A stretch of 64,000 nucleotides of DNA from Pegea sp. RAD2-039. Its lineage: Eukaryota > Chordata > Thaliacea > Salpida > Salpidae. Numbering within the stretch: position 1 is the stretch's first letter; each line of letters opens with the position of its first letter. The notes beneath the pieces are model-generated. The model did no database searches and was not told where the DNA came from. It saw only the letters and a program-made list of their open reading frames with translations. The position numbers and the translations under genes are program-made. Where the stretch lies: positions 124,001 through 188,000 of the forward strand of contig JAQGEQ010000301.1 in assembly GCA_034620365.1 (NCBI GenBank). Reading direction: 5' to 3'. Positions 3,001 to 53,604 of the stretch are shown piece by piece.

Positions 3001-6000
3001 AGAAATTGCTGATCAGCGGCAAGTTTTTTGTTTTATGATCATCTTGAACAATTTTTAAAATAGAAAAACTTGTTTACACTTCACTAAAAGTCAAATACTC
3101 TGCAGTTGGATTCGATTTTTACAAAATAGATTCACAAACATTTCAGAATTATTTGCAAAAACTTTAGATGAAATCTATTTTAATTTTTCCAATCGCAACC
3201 TTATTTTTCAATTAAGGAACATCTTAATACTAAATTTGAAATCTTTTTAATTTCTTTAAAACAATTTTTTTATTTTTATGGAATTTCAAATATTATGTTT
3301 TTGAATGCATAAGTAAACTACAATTTCAATATGACAGCTTTTCCTGCAAACTTTTTGTCATTGCTTTTGTTTCAGCAGCTTACATTTACTTGATTCATTA
3401 TTCGATTTATTTTGATGATTTTATGACATAAAAAGGTCAAGATACGAAATAATGAAAACTATTTTTAAATTGCTCAACAATATTTGCAGATGTAGGTTGT
3501 TCAGATAAATATTTTCTTTTTGAGGTTATTTTAAAAGTGGAAATAAACGCAAGTTTAAAAATTCCATATTTCTATTTGTTTTGTAATTAAGCTGACATTT
3601 GCTCATTTACAAACATTCCATTTTCCAACAAAAATTTGAACTTTTGAAATTAATTATTAAAAACTTAAATTAGAAATTCAAATCTAATCTTTTGTTATTC
3701 AATTAAAGCTCCATAAATTTCTGATTTTCTAAACGGAGAAATTCTGAGTTGAATGTGACTTTGTAGCAAGAATGAGGATTATTTATTTGCTTTCTTCGCT
3801 TAGATACAAAATATTTACATTTTACCCTCACCAATGGAATGATCTATTTAAGAATGAAGCTTAAAAATTTATCAAAAACTTATTTCTGCCAACTTCATAT
3901 AAAACTTAATCAGAATATTTTTTTGTTTGAAGAAATCTATTTCCATTTCTACTGTGATTGGTGATGTTTAATTAGCAGTCTTCTTTGTGAAGCTGATAAT
4001 CAAAGATTAGATTTGATGATAATCTTTAGAATTTTATGCAATCAAATATTTTTAATGCAGAAATAGTTTATTTGAAAAATCTTAAACCACTCATATCACA
4101 GCTGTGTTTTCTTAAATAACAACAAAGAAGAAATCTCTCCTTATAATTAACTTCTTGTTGCTTTGTAATGAGCAAAATGAGATGAAAAAGACGTTGCCTT
4201 GATTTTATCTGAAAAAATTCGAAATCATTTGAAGTTAAAGTCTAATTGTTCATCAAAATAAACTAAAACAGAAAAATATCAATTAGTAGGTTGCCTGGTT
4301 GCTAAGCATCATCAGATCGCGTCACTTTACAAGCATCACTAGATAATGATCTTATAAGTCATGAATCAGAGTAAATGATGAAGATTAACAAACCCCGATT
4401 TGTGGTGAAGTTCAAATCAAACTAAAAAGTTGTTTTGAGAAACGAATAAATGTTCCAATCTCAAAAATTAACTTATCTACTAATCGTCAAACTTTACAAA
4501 TCACAAATTACTAATAACAGATCGAGTATTTTGTCAAAGTTTAGTGACGTCATCGTCATCTAATTACAGCTCGTCGGAGACTTGAAAGTTTTTGTTGAAT
4601 TTCTAAAAATATTTTCACTTCATCATCAACAGGCTTTTTGAAATTTCGTCTTTTAAACTTCTAGCTTCGATTTCATCAAAAGTAATTGAAACAAGGTGAA
4701 GTTGAAGCGACTGAAATAAAGTTTCCGTGAAATATGGATGAAAATATTTTTTAAATTTCTCATCTAATCATTAAAAGAATATTTTTATAGATTTTAACAA
4801 TTTTGTTAGATGAACTTGTTTTTGAATAAAAGTTGTTCTTCGATGGAAGTGAATGGTTTTTGAGACCTTACTGTGAGTGAAACCAATTTAAAGTTAGAAG
4901 ATTAAATACTTCTTATTACAAGAATAAGATTTGAAGTTTTGTTTTTTCAGATTTTACTACCAGAATGCAAATCTATTTTTGATGTAATTTTTGTGAAAAG
5001 AATTCGTAAAATTTGTTTTTTAAATTAATAGAATTTTAAATTTGATGAAAAGAAGACTTCAGCTCAACAAATGAAGATGAATTATAAGATGAAGAACAAA
5101 CTGTTGGATCTCAATCATGAAACAGTAAGACTTCAACATATAAATTTGAAACTTTTTAATTTGAACTTTTTTTATTACTTTAAAAGTGAATTTGTAAAAA
5201 TTGAGGTGAAAATAAAGATTTGAAAATTAATTTGAAGATAAATGACTCAAACATCTGTCGTTGACGTCAACTTGAGTGAATCACTACTTGACTCAAGTGA
5301 AAGTTGACTCTGGCACGTTCTTAGCGTCTCAATGAATAGATTGACGCCGATTTTGTAAATATTAAATACTTGACATCACAATCAAAAATGATTTTCAAAA
5401 AACTTTTCGTTTTTCTCGACAAGCAAAGGCGGCAATATACGTTTTCTGGTTAGATATATAAATCATCAAAACCAGAAAGTCAATAATCTGTTGCAAGTAA
5501 ATTTGCACCAAAATTTTATCAACTTTATACAGCTAAATGAAAACCAAAACAGGAAGAAAAAAATCTGATAAAACATGAAGAAAATTGAAATATAATTAAA
5601 ATTTAACTTCGAAAAGTTATGATATTTTAATACTTTTGAAATGACTGATGAAATAGTCATCAGAAAATATTACAAAAGTATTGATGCCAAAATCAGTTTC
5701 AACAAAACAACCGCTTTTCTTACACAGGTGTTTAAATATTTCATCAGAAACAAACGTGAAGTCATCAAATTGAAAATCTAACAATTGAAGCAACAAGACG
5801 ATTTTAGCTGAAGAATTGTTGATTTGCCACTAAGTCTTTAGAACTTTTAATTTTTTGTAATTTAAAATAAATCTGAAATTAGAAGTTTTTAAAGAAGAAA
5901 CTTCAAACTTTTTGAGATTATTTAATAATTTGTCAAAAATTCAACATTTTTTTAAAAGAAAATTCAACAATTTTTATCTAAATATCAGGATTATAGATCT

Positions 6001-8175: not shown

Positions 8176-8361
8176 TTTGAAATCGATCACGAAGATGAGG
8201 ATCACGAAGATGAAGATCACGAAGATGAAGATCACGAAGATGAAGATCACATTGATGAAGATCACAACAAGGAGGATCACGAAGATGAGGATCACGAAGA
8301 TGAAGATCACGAAGATGAAGATCACAACAAGGAAGATCACAAAGATGAAGATCAACTCTGA
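8176..8361 (+). CDS. possible His/Asp/Glu repeat exon
   Basis: A sequence that reads as a splice acceptor (TGTTTTTTCTCAG) ends at 8175. From 8176 one frame is open for 61 codons to TGA at 8359-8361. It reads FEIDH followed by repeats of the pentapeptide EDEDH, with variants IDEDH and NKEDH, and ends in DEDQL. A peptide of alternating acidic residues and histidines would be expected to bind divalent metal ions. The caveat is strong: the underlying 15-bp tandem repeat has no stop in most frames on either strand, so the open frame is not by itself evidence of coding. No upstream exon was identified. Confidence 0.18.
   Translation, partial: FEIDHEDEDHEDEDHEDEDHEDEDHIDEDHNKEDHEDEDHEDEDHEDEDHNKEDHKDEDQL
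8191..8355. repeat. 15-bp minisatellite, 11 copies (GAAGATGAAGATCAC)
   Basis: Eleven tandem copies of GAAGATGAAGATCAC, with variants in which GAA becomes GAG, CACGAAGAT becomes CACATTGAT, or CACGAAGAT becomes CACAACAAG. The unit length is a multiple of three and copies differ only by substitutions, so every frame is preserved. The core GATGAAGATCA recurs in the 17-bp array inside DNAJC1 near 46.2-46.7 kb. Confidence 0.95.
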
Positions 8362-8477: not shown

Positions 8478-8841
8478 GGTCCACCCTACTCTGGTCCACC
8501 CTACTCTGGTCCACCCTACTCTGGTCCACCCTATTCTGGTCCACCCTATTCTGGTCAGGTCATATTCTGGTCCCGTCCTATTCTGGTCCCGTCCTATTCT
8601 GGTCACGTTCTATTCTGGTCCCGTCCTATTCTGGTCCCGTCCTATTCTGGTCATGTCCTATTCTGGTCATGTCCTATTCTGGTCACGTCCTATTCTGGTC
8701 CCGTCCTATTCTGGTCATGTCCTATTCTGGTCCCGTCCTATTCTGGTCATGTCCTATTCTGGTCATGTCCTATTCTGGTCACGTCCTATTCTGGTCCCGT
8801 CCTATTCTGGTCATGTCCTATTCTGGTCACGTCCTATTTCT
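8478..8841. repeat. 15/16-bp GC-richer minisatellite
   Basis: Five 15-bp units (GGTCCACCCTACTCT, then GGTCCACCCTATTCT) run from 8478 to 8552. They are followed from 8553 by 18 units of 16 bp, consensus GGTCCCGTCCTATTCT. The 16-bp units vary mainly at two positions (CCCG, CACG, CATG). Some CATG units look like CpG decay of CACG. The one-base change of unit length makes the translated frame rotate in the second part, which argues against a coding role for the whole array. Plus-strand units are poor in A. Confidence 0.95.
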
Positions 8842-26910: not shown

Positions 26911-29900
26911 TGCCAACAACTACATCAACAACAACATCAACAACTACATCAACAACTACATCAACAACTACATCAACAACTACATCAACAACTACATCAA
27001 CAACTACTTCAACATCTACATCAACAACTACATCAACAACTACATCAACAACTACATCATCAACTACTTCAACAACTGCATCAACAACTACATCAACAAC
27101 TACATCAACAACTACATCAACAACTACATCAACAACTACTTCAACAACTACATCAACAACTACATCAACAACTACATCATCAACAACTACATCAACAACT
27201 ACATCAACAACTACATCAACAACTACTTCATCAACTACTTCAACAACTACATCATCAACTACATCAACAACTACATCAACAACTACATCAACAACTACAT
27301 CAACAACTACATCAACAACTACATCAACAACTACATCAACAACTACATCAACAACTACATCAACAACTACATCAACAACTACATCAACAACTACATCAAC
27401 AACTACATCATCAACTACATCAACAACTACATCAACAACTACATCAACAACTACATCAACAACTACATCAACAACTACATCAACAACTACATCAACAACT
27501 ACATCAACAACTACATCAACAACTACATCATCAACTACATCATCAACTACATCGTCAACAACATCAACAACTACATCAACAACTACATCAACAACTACAT
27601 CATCAAGTACATCAACAACAACATCATCAACTACTTCAACAACTACATCAACAACTACATCATCAACTACATCAACAACTACATCAACAACTACATCAAC
27701 AACTACATCAACAACTACTTCAACAACTACAGCATCAACTACATCAACAACTACATCAACAACTACATCATCAACTACATCAACAACTACATCAACAACT
27801 ACATCAACAACTACATCAACAACTACATCAACAACTACATCAACAACTACATCAACAACTACATCAACAACTACATCAACAACTACATCAACAACTACAT
27901 CAACAATCAACAACTACATCATCAACTACATCATCAACTACATCAACAACTACATCATCAACAACTACATCATCAACAACTACATCATCAACAACTACAT
28001 CAACAACTACATCAACAACAACATCAACAACTACATCAACAACTACATCAACAACAACATCAACAACTACATCAACAACTACATCAACAACTACATCATC
28101 AACTACATCATCAACTACATCAACAACTACATCAACAACTACATCAACAAGTACATCATCAACTACATCATCAACTACATCAACAAATACATCAAAAACT
28201 ACATCAACAACTACATCATCAACTACATCAACAACTACATCAACAACTACTTCAACAACAACATCATCAACTACATCAACAACTACATCAACAACTACAT
28301 CAACAACTACATCAACAACTACATCAACAACTACATCAACAAATACATCAACAACTACATCAACAACTACATCAACAACTACATCAACAACTACATCAAC
28401 AACTACATCAACAAATACATCAACAACTACATCAACAACTACATCAACAACTACATCAACAACTACATCAACAACAACATCATCAACTACATCACCAATT
28501 ACATCATCAACTACATCAACAACAACATCAACAACTACATCAACAACTACATCAACAACTACATCAACAACTACATCAACAACTACATCAACAACTACAT
28601 CAACAACTACATCAACAACTACATCAACAACTACATCAACAACTACATCAACAACTACATCAACAACTACATCAACAACTACATCAACAACTACATCAAC
28701 AAATACATCAACAACTACATCAACAACTACATCAACAACTACATCAACAACTACATCAACAACTACATCAACAATTATATCAACAACTACATCATCAACT
28801 ACATCATCAACTACATCAACAACTACATCATCAACAACTACATCAACAACTACATCAACAACAACATCATCAACTACATCATCAACTACATCAACAACTA
28901 CATCAACAACTACATCAACAAGTACATCATCAACTACATCATCAACTACATCAACAAATACATCAACAACTACATCAACAACTACATCATCAACTACATC
29001 AACAACTACATCAACAAGTACATCATCAACTACATCATCAACTACATCAACAAATACATCAACAACTACATCAACAACTACATCATCAACTACATCAACA
29101 ACTACATCAACAACCACATCATCAACTACATCAACAACTACATCAACAACTACATCAACAACTACATCAACAACTACATCAACAACTACATCAACAACTA
29201 CATCAACAACTACATCAACAACTACATCATCAACTACATCAACAATTACACCAACAACTACATCAACAACTACATCAACAACTACATCATCAACTACTTC
29301 AACAACTACTTACATCAACTACATCAACAACTACATCAACAACTACATCATCAACTACATCAACAATCAACAACTACACAACAACTACATCAACATACAA
29401 CAACTACATCAACAACTACATCAACAACTACATCATCAACTACATCAACAACTACATCAACAACCACATACATCAACTACATCAACAACTACATCAACAA
29501 CATCACAACTACATCACAACTACATCAACAACTACATCAACAACTCACATACATCAACAACTACATCAACAACTACATCAACAACTACAACTACATCAAC
29601 AACTACATCAACAACTACATCAACAACTACATCAACAACTACATCAACAACTACATCATCAACTACATCATCAACTACATCAACAAATACATCAACAACT
29701 ACATCAACAACTACATCATCAACTACATCATCAACTACATCAACAACTACATCATCAACTACATCAACAACTACATCAACAACATACAACTACATCAACA
29801 ACTACATCAACAACTACATCATCAACTACTTCAACAACTACTTCATCAACTACATCATCAACTACATCAACAACTACATCATCAACTACATCAACAATTA

Positions 29901-29946
29901 CACCAACAACAACATCAACAACTACATCAACAACTACATCATCAAC
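26911..29946. repeat. 3-kb satellite of 12-bp unit ACATCAACAACT
   Basis: About 250 tandem copies of ACATCAACAACT. Common variants are ACATCATCAACT, ACTTCAACAACT and ACATCAACAAAT, with a few partial units near 29.3-29.6 kb and 29.78 kb. The plus strand is almost free of G: only scattered AAGTACATC, ACTGCATC, ACAGCATC and CATCGTC units contain one. All three plus-strand frames of the unit lack stops (TSTT, HQQL and INNY), so long open frames are automatic. Nothing resembling a signal peptide or flanking coding sequence is present, and the frames shift at indels, so I treat this as a non-coding satellite. Confidence 0.93.
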
Positions 29947-45854: not shown

Positions 45855-48800
45855 TTAAAGATCAGCTGAAACTTTAGATTTGCGTTTTTGCAAAATCATT
45901 TCAGATAAGTAACGATAACGAGCAATACACTCTTCCTATAAAAAATCATTTTTAAGAAAAGCGATGAAAAGACTTCATCTTCACCTTGCTCTTCCCAGGA
46001 ACACAATCCGAGATCTTCTGCCATCTATCTTCTTCAACCTTCGGATATGTGATCAAAGCTTGTTCCAGTATCTTCTGTAACTTGTTGTCCCAACAATCAG
46101 CTGAAAGAAGAAGAGATAAAGATGAAGTTTCAGTTGAAATGATCACCATTAGTTGGTTTTGGATCAGAATCATTCGGATTTGATGAAGTTGTAAATGAAG
46201 TGGTGAGATTCCTTCGTTGCTTCACAAGACCTAAAAAAGATCAACAGATGATGAAGATCAACAGATGATGAAGATCAACAGATGATGAAGATCAACAGAT
46301 GATGAAGATCAACAGAAGATCAACAGAAGATGAAGATCAACAGATGATGAAGATCAACAGATGATGAAGATCAACAGAAGATGAAGATCAACAGATGATG
46401 AAGATCAACAGATGATGAAGATCAACAGAAGATGAAGATCAACAGATGATGAAGATCAACAGATGATGAAGATCAACAGAAGATGAAGATCAACAGATGA
46501 TGAAGATCAACAGATGATGAAGATCAACAGATGATGAAGATCAACAGATGATGAAGATCAACAGATGATGAATATCAACAGATGATGAAGATCAACAGAT
46601 GATGAAGATCAACAGAAGATGAAGATCAACAAAAGATGAAGATCAACAAATGATGAAGATCAACAGATGATGAAGATCAACAGAAGATGAAGATCAACAA
46701 AAGACTACTCACCAGTTTCATGTGAAGAAGAAGATTTAGTTTTCTGAATTTTTCCTGAAAATTATTTTCATTAGAAATGAAGAAATGGAATTTTTGGACT
46801 TCTACCTAGCCCTTGCTTGGCCAATTTCGCTTTTGTGGTAATAGTTGCTATCGGGTGGTCCATTTCTCTTCCTATAACTGCCCAACGGTCCAATGTACCT
46901 CCTGGATATTTGACCATCAACTCACAAAGTTGTTGTTGATCTTCATCAGTCCAAGGACGTTGACTTGACTTCTACAATCATGATGTCGTCAGCGAGAAGA
47001 CGTTGATGACGTCATCACCTTTTTACGCCGCCTAGTGTTGTATTCTTCTTCTTCTTCATCTTCATCATACATTGCTTCTAGTTCCTCGATGGATTGTGTC
47101 TTTACATCATTTTGAGATTGCCAATTGAGCATCACTTCGACTGGAGCTTCCGTCTTCGCGACTCGATTCGTCAACGACTACAAAAACATTGTCATTTATT
47201 GACAACAAAATCGCCTCTCTAGCTCCACCACGTGGTTGAAACCACCAACAGCGAGCTTCGAGACTTCTTCGAGTCTTCAGATGAAGATCAAACTGACTTC
47301 TTCATGACGTTTTCGGACGTTATCTTTTCGCGCCTGCTTCGTTTTTTCGCGTTTTTCTTTCAGCGCTTTTTGATATTCTTCTAACTCTTCTTTTTCTCTG
47401 CATCACAAAAGATGTCATCTTCATCTTTTAAAGACTTCTTCAACTACTTCTGTTTCTTCTCTTCTTTTTCGCGTTTTCGTTTTGCGATCAGTTTGGCATC
47501 TTTGTAAATCCGAGGGATCATCATACAGAGATGGAAGATGCCTCTGGGAAGAGCGATTAGAAGAAGATCACTCCATCTGGGCCACGGAGCGATTTGATTA
47601 CTAGAAAGATGTAGAAATTAGAAGACTTCGGATGTAAAAGTAGAAGACTTCGGATGTAAAAGTAGAAGATTTCGGATGTAAAAGTAGAAGACTTCAGATG
47701 TAAAAGTAGAAGATTTCGGATGTAAAAGTAGAGGACTTCGGATGTAAAAGTAGAAGACTTCGGATGTAAAAGTAGAAGACTTCGGATGTAAAAGTAGAAG
47801 ATTTCGGATGTAAAAGTAGAAGACTTCGGATGTAAAAGTAGAAGATTTCGGATGTAAAAGTAGAAGACTTCGGATGTAAAAGTAGAAGACTTCGGATGTA
47901 AAAGTAGAAGACTTCGGATGTAAAAGTAGAAGACTTCGGATGTAAAAGTAGAAGACTTCGGATGTAAAAGTAGAAGATTTCGGATGTAAAAGTAGAAGAT
48001 TTCGGATGTAAAAGTAGAAGACTTCGGATGTAAAAGTAGAAGATTTCGGATGTAAAAGTAGAAGACTTCGGATGTAAAAGTAGAAGATTTCGGATGTAAA
48101 AGTAGAAGATTTCGGATGTAAAAGTAGAAGACTTCGGATGTAAAAGTAGAAGACTTCGGATGTAAAAGTAGAAGACTTCGGATGTAAAAGTAGAAGACTT
48201 CGGATGTAAAAGTAGAAGATTTCGGATGTAAAAGTAGAAGACTTCGGATGTAAAAGTAGAAGACTTCGGATGTAAAAGTAGAAGATTTCGGATGTAAAAG
48301 TAGAAGATTTCGGATGTAAAAGTAGAAGACTTCGGATGTAAAAGTAGAAGATTTCGGATGTAAAAGTAGAAGACTTCGGATGTAAAAGTAGAAGATTTCG
48401 GATGTAAAAGTAGAAGACTTCGGATGTAAAAGTAGAAGACTTCGGATGTAAAAGTAGAAGACTTCGGATGTAAAAGTAGAAGATTTCGGATGTAAAAGTA
48501 GAAGACGGATGTAAAAGTAGAAGATTTCGGATGTAAAAGTAGAAGACTTCGGATGTAAAAGTAGAAGACTTCGGATGTAAAAGTAGAAGATTTCGGATGT
48601 AAAAGTAGAAGATTTCGGATGTAAAAGTAGAAGATTTCGGATGTAAAAGTAGAAGATTTCGGATGTAAAAGTAGAAGATTTCGGATGTAAAAGTAGAAGA
48701 CTTCGGATGTAAAAGTAGAAGATTTCGGATGTAAAAGTAGAAGATTTCGGATGTAAAAGTAGAAGACTTCGGATGTAAAAGTAGAAGATTTCGGATGTAA

Positions 48801-51780
48801 AAGTAGAAGACTTCGGATGTAAAAGTAGAAGATTTCGGATGTAAAAGTAGAAGATTTCGGATGTAAAAGTAGAAGATTTCGGATGTAAAAGTAGAAGATT
48901 TCGGATGTAAAAGTAGAAGATTTCGGATGTAAAAGTAGAAGATTTCGGATGTAAAAGTAGAAGATTTCGGATGTAAAAGTAGAAGATTTCGGATGTAAAA
49001 GTAGAAGACTTCGGATGTAAAAGTAGAAGACTTCGGATGTAAAAGTAGAAGACTTCGGATGTAAAAGTAGAAGATTTCGGATGTAAAAGTAGAAGACTTC
49101 GGATGTAAAAGTAGAAGACTTCAGATGTAAAAGTAGAAGACTTCGGATGTAAAAGTAGAAGATTTCGGATGTAAAAGTAGAAGATTTCGGATGTAAAAGT
49201 AGAAGATTTCGGATGTAAAAGTAGAAGATTTCGGATGTAAAAGTAGAAGACTTCGGATGTAAAATTAGAAGACTTCGGATGTAAAAGTAGAAGATTTCGG
49301 ATGTAAAAGTAGAAGACTTCGGATGTAAAAGTAGAAGATTTCGGATGTAAAAGTAGAAGATTTCGGATGTAAAAGTAGAAGACTTCGGATGTAAAAGTAG
49401 AAGACTTCGGATGTAAAAGTAGAAGATTTCGGATGTAAAAGTAGAAGACTTCGGATGTAAAAGTAGAAGATTTCGGATGTAAAAGTAGAAGATTTCGGAT
49501 GTAAAAGTAGAAGATTTCGGATGTAAAAGTAGAAGACTTCGGATGTAAAAGTAGAAGACTTCGGATGTAAAAGTAGAAGATTTCGGATGTAAAAGTAGAA
49601 GATTTCGGATGTAAAAGTAGAAGATTTCGGATGTAAAAGTAGAAGATTTCGGATGTAAAAGTAGAAGACTTCGGATGTAAAAGTAGAAGATTTCGGATGT
49701 AAAAGTAGAAGACTTCGGATGTAAAAGTAGAAGATTTCGGATGTAAAAGTAGAAGATTTCGGATGTAAAAGTAGAAGACTTCGGATGTAAAAGTAGAAGA
49801 CTTTCGGATGTAAAAGTAGAAGACTTCGGATGTAAAAGTAGAAGACTTCGGATGTAAAAGTAGAAGACTTCGGATGTAAAAGTAGAAGACTTCGGATGTA
49901 AAAGTAGAAGATTTCGGATGTAAAAGTAGAAGATTTCGGATGTAAAAGTAGAAGATTTCGGATGTAAAAGTAGAAGATTTCGGATGTAAAAGTAGAAGAC
50001 TTCGGATGTAAAAGTAGAAGATTTCGGATGTAAAAGTAGAAGACTTCGGATGTAAAAGTAGAAGACTTCAGATGTAAAAGTAGAAGATTTCGGATGTAAA
50101 AGTAGAAGACTTTGGATGTAAAAGTAGAAGATTTCGGATGTAAAAGTAGAAGATTTCGGATGTAAAAGTAGAAGATTTCGGATGTAAAAGTAGAAGATTT
50201 CGGATGTAAAAGTAGAAGATTTCGGATGTAAAAGTAGAAGACTTCGGATGTAAAAGTAGAAGACTTCGGATGTAAAAGTAGAAGATTTCGGATGTAAAAG
50301 TAGAAGATTTCGGATGTAAAAGTAGAAGACTTCGGATGTAAAAGTAGAGATTTCGGATGTAAAAGTAGAAGATTTCGGATGTAAAAGTAGAAGACTTCGG
50401 ATGTAAAAGTAGAAGACTTCGGATGTAAAAGTAGAAGACTTCGGATGTAAAAGTAGAAGATTTCGGATGTAAAAGTAGAAGATTTCGGATGTAAAAGTAG
50501 AAGATTTCGGATGTAAAAGTAGAAGACTTCGGATGTAAAAGTAGAAGACTTTCGGATGTAAAAGTAGAAGACTTCGGATGTAAAAGTAGAAGACTTCGGA
50601 TGTAAAAGTAGAAGACTTCGGATGTAAAAGTAGAAGATTTCGGATGTAAAAGTAGAAGATTTCGGATGTAAAAGTAGAAGACTTCGAATGTAAAAGTAGA
50701 AGACTTCGGATGTAAAAGTAGAAGACTTCGGATGTAAAAGTAGAAGACTTCGGATGTAAAAGTAGAAGACTTCGGATGTAAAAGTAGAAGACTTCGGATG
50801 TAAAAGTAGAAGACTTCGGATGTAAAAGTAGAAGATTTCGGATGTAAAAGTAGAAGACTTCGGATGTAAAAGTAGAAGACTTCGGATGTAAAAGTAGAAG
50901 ATTTCGGATGTAAAAGTAGAAGACTTCGGATGTAAAAGTAGAAGATTTCGGATGTAAAAGTAGAAGACTTCGGATGTAAAAGTAGAAAATTTCGGATGTA
51001 AAAGTAGAAGATTTCGGATGTAAAAGTAGAAGACCTGAAAAGGCGGATCTCTTCATCAACTTCTTCTTCACTTTTGTTCATTTTTTTCTGTTTTTTTCGG
51101 AACTGAGGGATCCTCTCTTCCTACAATAGAAGTTTCAGATGAAGATTTGAAAGATTGAAGATACTAACCAGAGCAAGACGTCGTTCAAAATAAGAAGCAA
51201 TCATCCAAAGGTAGTGGGCGATTGTTGCTACAAGTGAAGTGAATGAAACAAATTCAAAGACACTCATCTTCCTCATCCGTCTGAAAACAGGATCATATGA
51301 AGATGTTGATCTTTTGAAATCCCATCTTACTTTGGAATATATCGAAATGATTTCGGTAATCCATTCACTAAAACTTCATCATATATATCACGTTTTTCTT
51401 TCACTTTCAAAATCTTGAAAAATAGAAACTTTAGAATTGAAAAACAAGAAGAACCTTTCGATGATTACCTCATAAATAGCGACTAACAATCTGAAGTTCT
51501 CTTCAGCACCTTCTGTCTGGTTTTTATCAGGATGCATTGTAAGAGAGAGTTTTCTGTAACTCCGTCTGATATCAGATGTACTTGCATCCTAAAAAAACTC
51601 TCTAATCTTCTGTGCTGAACAAACCAATCTCACCTGAGATATCCCTAAAAACTCATAAAAATTGCCTTTAAAATCATCAACAATTTCATAAACTTCGCCC
51701 TGCTCCTTCGTATAAGACCAATGACAAGACACAGATGTGATTAACACAGATATGATCACTAAGATGAAGATTCTGTGCAT
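45855..51780 (-). CDS. DNAJC1: DNAJC1-type ER membrane J-domain/SANT protein
   Basis: ER membrane co-chaperone: the lumenal J domain stimulates Hsp70 (BiP) and the SANT domains face the cytosol (known for the family). I assembled 13 exons that stay in frame, 482 aa: 51634-51780, 51469-51588, 51331-51413, 51169-51280, 51035-51120, 47448-47600, 47298-47397, 47019-47177, 46806-46971, 46713-46754, 46147-46230, 45985-46100, 45855-45935. Residues 1-20 are a signal peptide. The J domain follows, with HPD at 68-70 (SLTMHPDKN). RMRKMSVFEFVS leads into a membrane segment at about 124-148. A second hydrophobic patch (LLLIALPRGIFHLCMMIP) follows a WPRW motif. Then come a Lys/Glu-rich coil, an acidic stretch, SANT 1 (about 324-372, RPWTDEDQQQLCELM) and SANT 2 (about 419-475, DRWQKISDCVPGKSK, ending EECIARYRYL). 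Order and length match human DNAJC1 (554 aa). Most introns are 45-55 bp; intron 7 is 120 bp, and introns 10 and 5 are enlarged to 482 bp and 3,434 bp by tandem repeats. Weakest call: the exon 7 donor GTCAGT. Confidence 0.94.
46238..46701. repeat. 17-bp array filling DNAJC1 intron 10
   Basis: About 27 tandem copies of GATCAACAGATGATGAA (plus strand), with AGAAGATGAA and AACAAAAGATG variants and one partial unit. It occupies nearly all of the 482-bp intron 46231-46712, whose acceptor (ATCTTTTTTAG) and donor (GTGAGT) lie at the array edges. Neighbouring introns are 46-51 bp, so the array accounts for the whole enlargement. Confidence 0.95.
47627..51034. repeat. 22-bp array (155 copies) forming DNAJC1 intron 5
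   Basis: In gene orientation each unit is GTCTTCTACTT followed by TTACATCCGAA. The first unit begins with the intron's own 5' splice site: exon 5 ends CTTTTCAG and the next bases are GTCTTC. The array length of 3,408 bp equals 155 units minus 2 bp, which matches the four indels I can see (3-bp loss near 48506, 1-bp loss near 50348, 1-bp gains near 49802 and 50549). Units fall into two classes that start GTCTTC or ATCTTC. The remaining 26 nt of the intron (47601-47626) resemble one more diverged unit that ends in the acceptor TTTCTAG. The unit has no stop codon in any frame of the transcribed strand, so reading frames over 1,000 codons appear there without being genes. Confidence 0.97.
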
Positions 51781-52288: not shown

Positions 52289-53470
52289 TCATTTATCTTT
52301 TTTCTTCTCATCACTTTGATGATTTAATTCGATTATTTTACCAACTCGTTTACCACATTTCCTTGGAAACCAACCCTTAAATGGTTTTGTTTCTGTTTCA
52401 TCAACTTGTTTTTCACCATATAACCAATAAGTTGAAGCTCTTGTCACATGGAGACAGTCTCCTTTTTTGATAGGAATTCTTGGGTCATCAGAACATGGAA
52501 TACAACAAGCAGTTTTCAAACCTTTTGAGCAAGGAAGTAATCTTCCACTATAATCTTCTGCTCCATGATACAACACAACTCTTTTCTTCTTCTTTTCCTT
52601 CTGTTTTAATTGTTCTATACTAAGTGAATACTTATGACAACCATCAACAACAACCCAATCATATCCATCTGATTTTGGTTTACAATTCCAATTAATCACT
52701 TGCTTCATATTTTCTTTCCAACCATAATCATATGGATACTGAAAGATGTCTTCATCTTCATCTTCAGACCTATCTTCAGCTTTTTCAGCAATCCATTGTT
52801 CAATTCCAGTTTGGTTGATGATAACACTTTTAACTTGATAATAAAACAACAAACCAACAGCAACTGTGGTACCAAATGCTAATCCAATTACCATAATATT
52901 CATCAAAAGTGCATTTGCAGAAAAAGGGATGTGATTTAGAGGGTGGTAGAACGTAAATGAGGCTTCTATGATGTACTTGTAGATGGTGACACAATAAATT
53001 ATCATTGCATGTAAACAACCAATTGGTACAAAGAATAAAAAACTTAAGAAATATCCATGGTTTAAATGTCCACAGCAATTATTTATCCAAGGGCAATGAT
53101 GGTCCATTTTTAAAACACATCTTTCACATTTACGACAGTGATGAGCTCTTAAAGGTTTGAAACCATCACAAATGTTACAAAATTGCATAAATTTTTCATC
53201 TTCAATATTATCAGGTCTCCATCTAAAAGGAACAAGACCAGGACCAACAAATACAGCAAGAAAAAAGTTTCTTAAAATCAATGAGACCCATAAAATAAAC
53301 AAAGCTAATTGAAGTTTTCCAAACCAACTTTCATCTGGTCTCCAAGTCCATAAAATACAATCAATGATTGCTACAATTGAACAAGAAAAAATCACCATGA
53401 GTGCCAATATTGGACCAAAATGGAGAAGCCTTTTTAACATAAATAATGTCCTTAAAAGTTTTTCAAACAT
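52289..53470 (-). CDS. ZDHHC6: ZDHHC6-type palmitoyltransferase
   Basis: ER-resident protein S-acyltransferase that attaches palmitate to cysteines of client proteins (calnexin and others in mammals; family knowledge). A single 393-codon exon. Hydrophobic segments lie at about 17-40 and 52-76. The zinc-binding cysteine-rich domain (about 96-140) carries CNICDGFKP, HHCRKCERCVLKM and the catalytic DHHC at 123-126 (MDHHCPWINNCCGH). Two more membrane segments follow at about 141-167 and 186-212. The C-terminal part matches the SH3-like extension typical of ZDHHC6. It includes an adjacent cysteine pair (KTACCIPC) where the mammalian protein is regulated by palmitoylation, and GWFPRKCG at the end of the SH3 fold. 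The protein ends KKDK, a KKxx ER-retrieval signal like the KKNR of human ZDHHC6. Start: ATG at 53468-53470, 27 nt after an acceptor-like CTTCTTTTTCAG. It lies only 134 bp downstream of PNPO on the same strand. The CDS has no intron, unlike DNAJC1. Confidence 0.97.
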   Translation of the reverse strand: MFEKLLRTLFMLKRLLHFGPILALMVIFSCSIVAIIDCILWTWRPDESWFGKLQLALFILWVSLILRNFFLAVFVGPGLVPFRWRPDNIEDEKFMQFCNICDGFKPLRAHHCRKCERCVLKMDHHCPWINNCCGHLNHGYFLSFLFFVPIGCLHAMIIYCVTIYKYIIEASFTFYHPLNHIPFSANALLMNIMVIGLAFGTTVAVGLLFYYQVKSVIINQTGIEQWIAEKAEDRSEDEDEDIFQYPYDYGWKENMKQVINWNCKPKSDGYDWVVVDGCHKYSLSIEQLKQKEKKKKRVVLYHGAEDYSGRLLPCSKGLKTACCIPCSDDPRIPIKKGDCLHVTRASTYWLYGEKQVDETETKPFKGWFPRKCGKRVGKIIELNHQSDEKKKDK

Positions 53471-53604
53471 TTTTTTATAAATTTATTTAACTTGCCTGAA
53501 AAAGAAGTAACTTTTATCAACAGATTAATTATCATTTATAAAAATAAAGTTGATTTGATAAATATTTGAATTTATAATGATTAATTATGAAGTTTAAATT
53601 TAAT

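Follow-up and report, generated by a model that had tools for sequence, protein, structure and literature searches.

The closest described counterpart of the locus that we report here is the intron-18 VNTR of human ABCA7, which has a 25-bp unit, abuts the exon, and provides the splice donor with its own first two bases (De Roeck et al. 2018, PMC5954066). The ABCA7 array is reported to range from about 12 to about 427 copies; one unit is retained through a later donor at about 2%, independent of VNTR length, and skipping of exon 19 rises with VNTR length (PMC5954066). Three further systems bear on how such arrays are built and what they may do. First, human minisatellites mapped by MVR-PCR, such as D7S21, contain two similar unit types that are randomly interspersed (PMC2363947). 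Second, the Caenorhabditis elegans minisatellite CeRep25B has a 24-bp unit, with 75% of its repeats in introns and clusters along chromosomes III and II, and an effect on splicing or expression has been suggested for it (PMC4039745). Third, tandem genomic duplication of AGGT can create a new intron from exon sequence (reviewed in PMC3443670). Other intronic repeats are described in PMC3045353 and PMC12783039, the examined parts of which mention no donor inside the unit. Among the literature matches listed, as judged by titles and the beginnings of abstracts, ABCA7 was the only donor-including array, and the matches listed for the gene name included no DNAJC1.

We analyzed a 64,000-nt stretch of DNA from Pegea sp. 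RAD2-039 (positions 124,001 to 188,000 of contig JAQGEQ010000301.1, assembly GCA_034620365.1; henceforth the window), in which intron 5 of a DNAJC1-type gene consists almost entirely of a 22-bp tandem repeat. We consider it quite probable that this repeat is a private minisatellite that grew in place within a short (about 48-nt) GT-AG intron of the gene and now makes up nearly the whole intron, most likely being spliced out whole via the first donor and close to neutral. The gene was rebuilt by hand from the sequence and checked by translation, with one terminal stop, and comprises the following features.

45855..51780, minus strand: DNAJC1-type gene, 13 exons and 12 introns, 482 aa (hand-built model without internal stop; Pfam; PDB sequence matches).
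51035..51120, minus strand: exon 5, 86 nt, ending CTTTTCAG and giving the donor its -3 to -1 CAG (coding log-odds +5.81 in frame).
47448..47600, minus strand: exon 6, 153 nt, starting TAATCAAATCG (coding log-odds of the first 56 nt +5.81, the best of three frames).

The predicted product has a hydrophobic start that by eye resembles a signal peptide, followed by a J domain and two SANT/Myb regions. Pfam analysis of the 482-aa product returned DnaJ (3.2e-20) and Myb_DNA-binding (7.3e-11), with the first Myb stretch (327-353) scoring 23.1 bits, under the curated cut-off of 27. Sequence matches in the PDB with E up to 0.001 numbered 64, and the best 60 of the 64 were mostly J domains; both human DNAJC1 SANT domains were among the matches (2cqr, 2.6e-11; 2cqq, 3e-9), and for the second SANT region the DNAJC2 entry 2m2e (2.4e-12) was slightly better than the DNAJC1 entries. 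We take the order of hydrophobic start, J domain, and two SANT regions to be that of DNAJC1, and exon 6, which follows the array, presumably resembles human DNAJC1. The hydrophobic start, the early J domain, and the two SANT regions thus point to a gene of DNAJC1 type, and the preliminary description, which had placed the array in DNAJC1 intron 5, is to that extent supported by Pfam, PDB, and translation. The 12 introns measure 45, 55, 50, 48, 3434, 50, 120, 47, 51, 482, 46, and 49 nt in order. The sister introns of intron 5 had been described as mostly 45-55 bp, which holds for 9 of the 11, but the others are 120 and 482 nt long, and the latter is itself an array. Just upstream of the gene, a stop-to-stop ORF of 397 codons (52289-53482, minus strand) looks by eye like a DHHC palmitoyltransferase (HHCRKC...DHHCPW).

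Intron 5 itself is made up as follows.

47601..51034, minus strand: intron 5, 3,434 nt, phase 2, CAG/GTCTTC ... TTTCTAG/TA (top of 56 in-frame donor/acceptor pairs).
47627..51034, minus strand: array of 155 units, consensus RTCTTCTACTTTTACATCCGAA, where R is G in 79 and A in 76 (TRF and unit splitting; genome-wide unit search).
47601..47626, minus strand: last unit, diverged and running into the acceptor, GTCTTCTAATTTCTACATC-TTTCTAG (aligned to the unit with score 14; shuffling p 0.0004).

TRF placed the repeat at 47608-51034 (period 22, 155.8 copies, 96% matches, score 6204), and the minus strand from 51034 to 47601 splits into 156 pieces, i.e. 155 units and a last piece of 26 nt. In the earlier description the intron was 3,434 bp long, comprised 155 copies of a 22-bp repeat and then a diverged tail of 26 nt, and had the first base of the repeat as its donor; the rebuilt gene model gives the same length, TRF and unit splitting confirm the composition, and the intron does start at base 1 of unit 1 (CAG/GTCTTC). 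With head-to-tail units that fall in the range of about 10-60 bp, the array is a minisatellite. Nearly all units (151) are 22 nt long, the others being 23 nt (two), 21 nt (one), and 19 nt (one), and only 12 of the 155 depart from the consensus when base 1 is ignored. Base 1 is G in 80 of the 156 pieces (79 GTCTTC and 1 GTCCTC) and A in 76; read on the plus strand, this column holds C and T in even proportion and without pattern, and the other columns are nearly uniform. The earlier claim that many units copy the real donor is not supported as stated: 80 pieces share the GT, but the 76 with AT, about half, have no GT, and the exonic CAG to which the first donor owes its U1 pairing precedes only that one. 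In the last piece, the first 19 nt match the unit with one mismatch and one inserted base; its local score of 14 was reached by 0.04% of 5,000 shuffles, and the corresponding 26-nt ends of 44 other introns scored 10 at most.

The openness of the unit raises the possibility that the array is exonic and codes for a long repeat domain. The consensus unit is free of stops in all three minus-strand frames, only 6 stops occur in all three minus-strand frames over the 3,434 nt, tail included, and reading on in the frame of exon 5 meets no stop within the first 321 array codons. However, that frame then hits a TGA and both SANT regions are lost, with reading through a retained intron 5 ending after 504 codons; further, units of 19, 21, and 23 nt and a total that is not a multiple of 3 mean that no frame is kept, and an unconstrained pyrimidine-rich unit can be equally open. 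We reject a coding array, which we regard as scarcely credible, because of the in-frame stop before the SANT regions and the lack of a kept frame. With intron 5 removed, the exon 5/6 junction lies within an open 482-aa reading, between the J domain and the SANT regions. The earlier proposal that the array grew without touching an exon is supported.

The ends of the intron were assessed against 44 reference introns (median length 52 nt), each flanked by coding-like exons and taken from a self-trained gene model of 238 kb, window included. Splice matrices were self-trained on these 44 introns after seeding with general consensus weights. Up to four of the 44 come from the DNAJC1-type gene, one being a merged model of introns 9 and 10 that was counted among the 44 donors and excluded from the matrix for its length. 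For the ranking of donor/acceptor pairs, the coding model was retrained without the DNAJC1-type gene and array bases were scored neutral; under this model the last 37 nt of exon 5 have a coding log-odds of +4.46. The pair 51034/47601 was the best of 56 in-frame pairs (14.93), followed by pairs with an array donor (13.25), acceptor 47577 (12.72), and acceptor 47544 (11.27); with the array bases neutral, the lead of the best pair over those with array donors is only 1.7-2.1 log units. At -1.19 bits the intron 5 acceptor is weak, and just 2 of the 44 sampled acceptors score lower. Automatic gene models, forced runs included, did not join exons across intron 5, and the exon 5-exon 6 join rests on the hand-built model and the pair ranking.

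The donor was examined at the following site.

51029..51037, minus strand: 5' splice site (-3 to +6); no other GTCTTC of the array follows a CAG.

By the weight matrix, the first donor (CAG/GTCTTC) scores 0.16 bits, which is above 6 of the 44 sampled donors and is reached by 11.7% of 3,162 other GTs on the minus strand of the window. The 74 GAA/GTCTTC copies score -2.93 bits and the three AAA/GTCTTC copies -2.27 bits, in both cases below every one of the 44 sampled donors, and two further GT copies in the array read GAA/GTCCTC and TCC/GTCTTC. Duplex energies were predicted with a U1 5' end taken from the same genome (ATACTTACCTG), in which a single contig (C40) carries 11 of the 19 U1 snRNA matches, several in close proximity. 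The first donor is predicted to pair with U1 at -5.6 kcal/mol, the GAA copies at -1.3, and the AAA copies at -1.2, compared with a median of -5.4 for the 44 sampled donors, 3 of which pair no more strongly than -1.3. Five positions of the first donor match U1 (-3 to +2) and span the boundary, three of them in the exon; beyond +2 the donor is weak. AGs within the array score from -6.4 to -4.3, mostly -5.5, under all 44 sampled acceptors (lowest -3.1). Since the predicted U1 pairing of the array copies is weak, yet equally weak in 3 of 44 sampled donors, use of these copies is unlikely rather than impossible. The splicing machinery had been described as having to choose the first of many donor copies. 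The copies are not equal donors, however (predicted -5.6 versus -1.3 kcal/mol): with CAG before the first copy only and weak sites in the array, the spliceosome need not count copies, and the exon end can mark the first. A recursive-splicing motif (AG/GT inside the intron) was absent, the unit junctions reading GAAGTC or GAAATC and in one case CCGTC.

We also considered that the intron is real but that other sites are used, namely the acceptors at 47577 or 47544 or GTs in the array, giving variant proteins. Both acceptors are in frame, and 47544, which lies 57 nt downstream, has the best acceptor score (+1.83) and is better on motif alone; use of unit 4 as donor would add 66 nt in frame, 9 of the 80 GT units (first included) leave the full reading frame, and the one-unit retention in human ABCA7, via the donor of the second unit, is seen in about 2% of transcripts (PMC5954066). 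Use of 47544, however, would cost the coding-like segment 47600-47545 (+5.81); within the array, AT replaces GT in units 2 and 3, and the predicted U1 pairing of the usual later copy is just -1.3 kcal/mol. We therefore judge such variant splicing unlikely and favor removal of the whole intron via the first donor.

The gene contains a second array, which, like the ABCA7 precedent, the preliminary description had missed.

46231..46712, minus strand: intron 10, 482 nt, CTG/GTGAGT ... TTTTTTAG/GT (14 nt, 27 units of about 17 bp, and 15 nt).

The 17-bp unit of intron 10 is unrelated to that of intron 5 and occurs mainly as two types that differ by A or T, and the donor GTGAGT is canonical and lies outside the array. 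Among the sampled gene models, a small sample, the merged intron 10 region of the DNAJC1-type gene was the one intron that overlapped an array, and none in the other sampled genes did. Across the 238 kb, window included, TRF returned 14 rows of minisatellites with at least 4 copies and a score of at least 100, alternative periods of one array being counted. Adjacent 15-bp and 15/16-bp arrays lie at 8185-8354 and 8478-8838. A 12-bp array (CAACAACTACAT x 254; 26914-29946, plus strand) lies within stop-to-stop ORFs in each of the three plus-strand frames (1018-1037 codons); its translation is Thr/Ser-rich in one frame and would be mucin-like if coding.

Since minisatellites are common in this genome, the intron 5 array might represent a dispersed satellite or a transposon inserted in the intron. 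However, the 22-bp unit pattern (at most 1 mismatch) has 152 matches in the 105.7-Mb genome, and the array in the window alone accounts for 152; likewise, the two-unit 17-mer pattern (at most 2 mismatches) has 23 matches, all in intron 10. Genome counts of repeats are lower bounds, and the unit search counted all matches and placed the first 100. Further, the end of each array intron is itself a partial unit (p 0.0004 for intron 5 and 0.005 for intron 10, by shuffling). An inserted satellite or transposon is thus unsupported by the genome-wide searches, which match each unit's own intron only (within these lower bounds), and we regard it as very improbable. An introner or introner-like element is likewise unsupported by the same counts (152 genome matches, 152 in one array), and intron gain by AGGT tandem duplication is rejected because the donor is AG/GT but the acceptor is TAG/TA. 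Because the unit is found nowhere else in the genome, the array most likely grew in place. If one unit is kept, intron 5 shrinks to 48 nt and intron 10 to 46 nt, as normal introns in the sampled genes, of which 32 of 44 are 44-61 nt long. The preliminary description had made this same point for intron 5; the fit to normal size holds, but the match alone is weak evidence, because a length of 26 + 22k lands in any 11-nt range at about even chance. The ancestor of intron 5 was probably about 48 nt long and appears to have swollen some seventy-fold since.

The order of the two unit types along the array (80 G and 76 A in 77 runs) shows no departure in the number of runs, no lag correlation, and no repeated block or higher-order structure beyond chance; the longest repeated block, 12, is reached by 71% of shuffles. 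Such an order, two unit types randomly interspersed, is that of two-type arrays in MVR mapping. In simulations, growth by block duplication, with a maximum block of 1, 2, 3, 5, 10, 20, or 50 units, was jointly compatible with the observed order in 1% of runs or fewer, compared with 24% for independent draws of unit type. Much of the fit returned (9-24%) when templates switched over one to two units, when single units were converted, or when the variable base toggled once the array had grown by blocks of at most 5 or 20 units. It did not return with long template switching (mean 5), nor with toggling that followed growth by single units. The simple tandem-duplication history proposed earlier thus fares worse than independent draws in the models tried, which simulated growth without deletions. 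The even, patternless C/T column beside nearly uniform ones is also what a hard-to-call base could give, and the copy number or the G/A pattern might partly be an assembly or base-calling artefact. Assembly loops, however, would leave repeated blocks, and those present do not exceed the length expected by chance; moreover, other arrays in the genome have A/T two-allele columns, not C/T alone. A single dominant two-allele column, of C/T or A/T type, is found at 3615-4273 of locus L048 and in the window arrays at 26914, 46237, and 47608. The 12-bp and 17-bp arrays have no significant structure in variant order, the 15-bp array of L048 has some (p 0.02), and the 16-bp array of the adjacent pair noted above, with several variable columns, has more, with block structure in its variants, unlike the 22-bp array. 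We consider an artefact improbable and read the near-random G/A order as a point on array growth, where it is the least explained part, and not as evidence of function.

Overall, we propose that a minisatellite arose in an ordinary short GT-AG intron of about 48 nt and expanded until it was nearly the whole intron. The left edge of the array would coincide with the exon/intron boundary because further spread of copies would disturb coding sequence. The whole 3.4 kb would most likely be removed in one piece: the CAG at the end of the exon, absent in front of every later copy, would pair with U1 and position it, and the GTs within the array are weak and its AGs very weak. An array whose unit creates no splice sites able to compete would be tolerated, and this one is probably close to neutral. 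By analogy with the ABCA7 VNTR or CeRep25B, the array may instead act on splicing or expression; these are precedents for acting arrays (PMC5954066, PMC4039745), and one gene carries two arrays. The intron 5 array, however, looks tolerated by its sequence and has no strong sites, and we give such a role a low probability. More speculatively, and doubtful in our view, the genome may copy short intron segments unit by unit from two parental types, by template switching or unit-sized conversion and not by block duplication, with arrays in two introns of one gene as products, and pairing of U1 with the exon may let the spliceosome ignore dozens of GT copies. If this were general, a defined repair process would repeatedly yield arrays that start at a donor, and such arrays would offer a natural test of 5' splice-site selection by the exon end alone. 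The locus amounts to a natural experiment on how splice sites are chosen: GT occurs 80 times (79 of them as GTCTTC) at the same place in the unit, with nearly identical sequence downstream and CAG before the first only. This suggests that 5' splice-site identity can lie in the exon end and not in the intron hexamer.

We conclude by comparing the locus with the known systems, as far as the accounts of these cited above extend. Like AGGT-type gain, the intron 5 array involves tandem duplication next to a splice junction; unlike it, the growth seems to have been that of an intron already present, and the acceptor does not read AG/GT. Like CeRep25B, it is an intronic minisatellite, but with a 22-bp unit at one locus. 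Compared with D7S21, it is one assembled sequence, is intronic, and has its variable base at the would-be donor position. The likeness to ABCA7 is closest, in that the array directly adjoins the exon and the donor, here as predicted from sequence, is the first base of unit 1 (51034). The ABCA7 intron, by contrast, is C-rich, and copy-number polymorphism, unit retention, and exon skipping have been shown in human; conversely, the gene described here is short-introned, about half of its intron 5 units have no GT, and a second array intron lies in the same gene. Because units 2 and 3 lack GT, one-unit retention in the style of ABCA7 is not possible in intron 5. As the architecture has been published for human ABCA7, the intron 5 array extends a known kind and opens no new one, adding a putative ABCA7-like donor-including VNTR in an animal with mostly ~50-nt introns and with a second array intron alongside for comparison.
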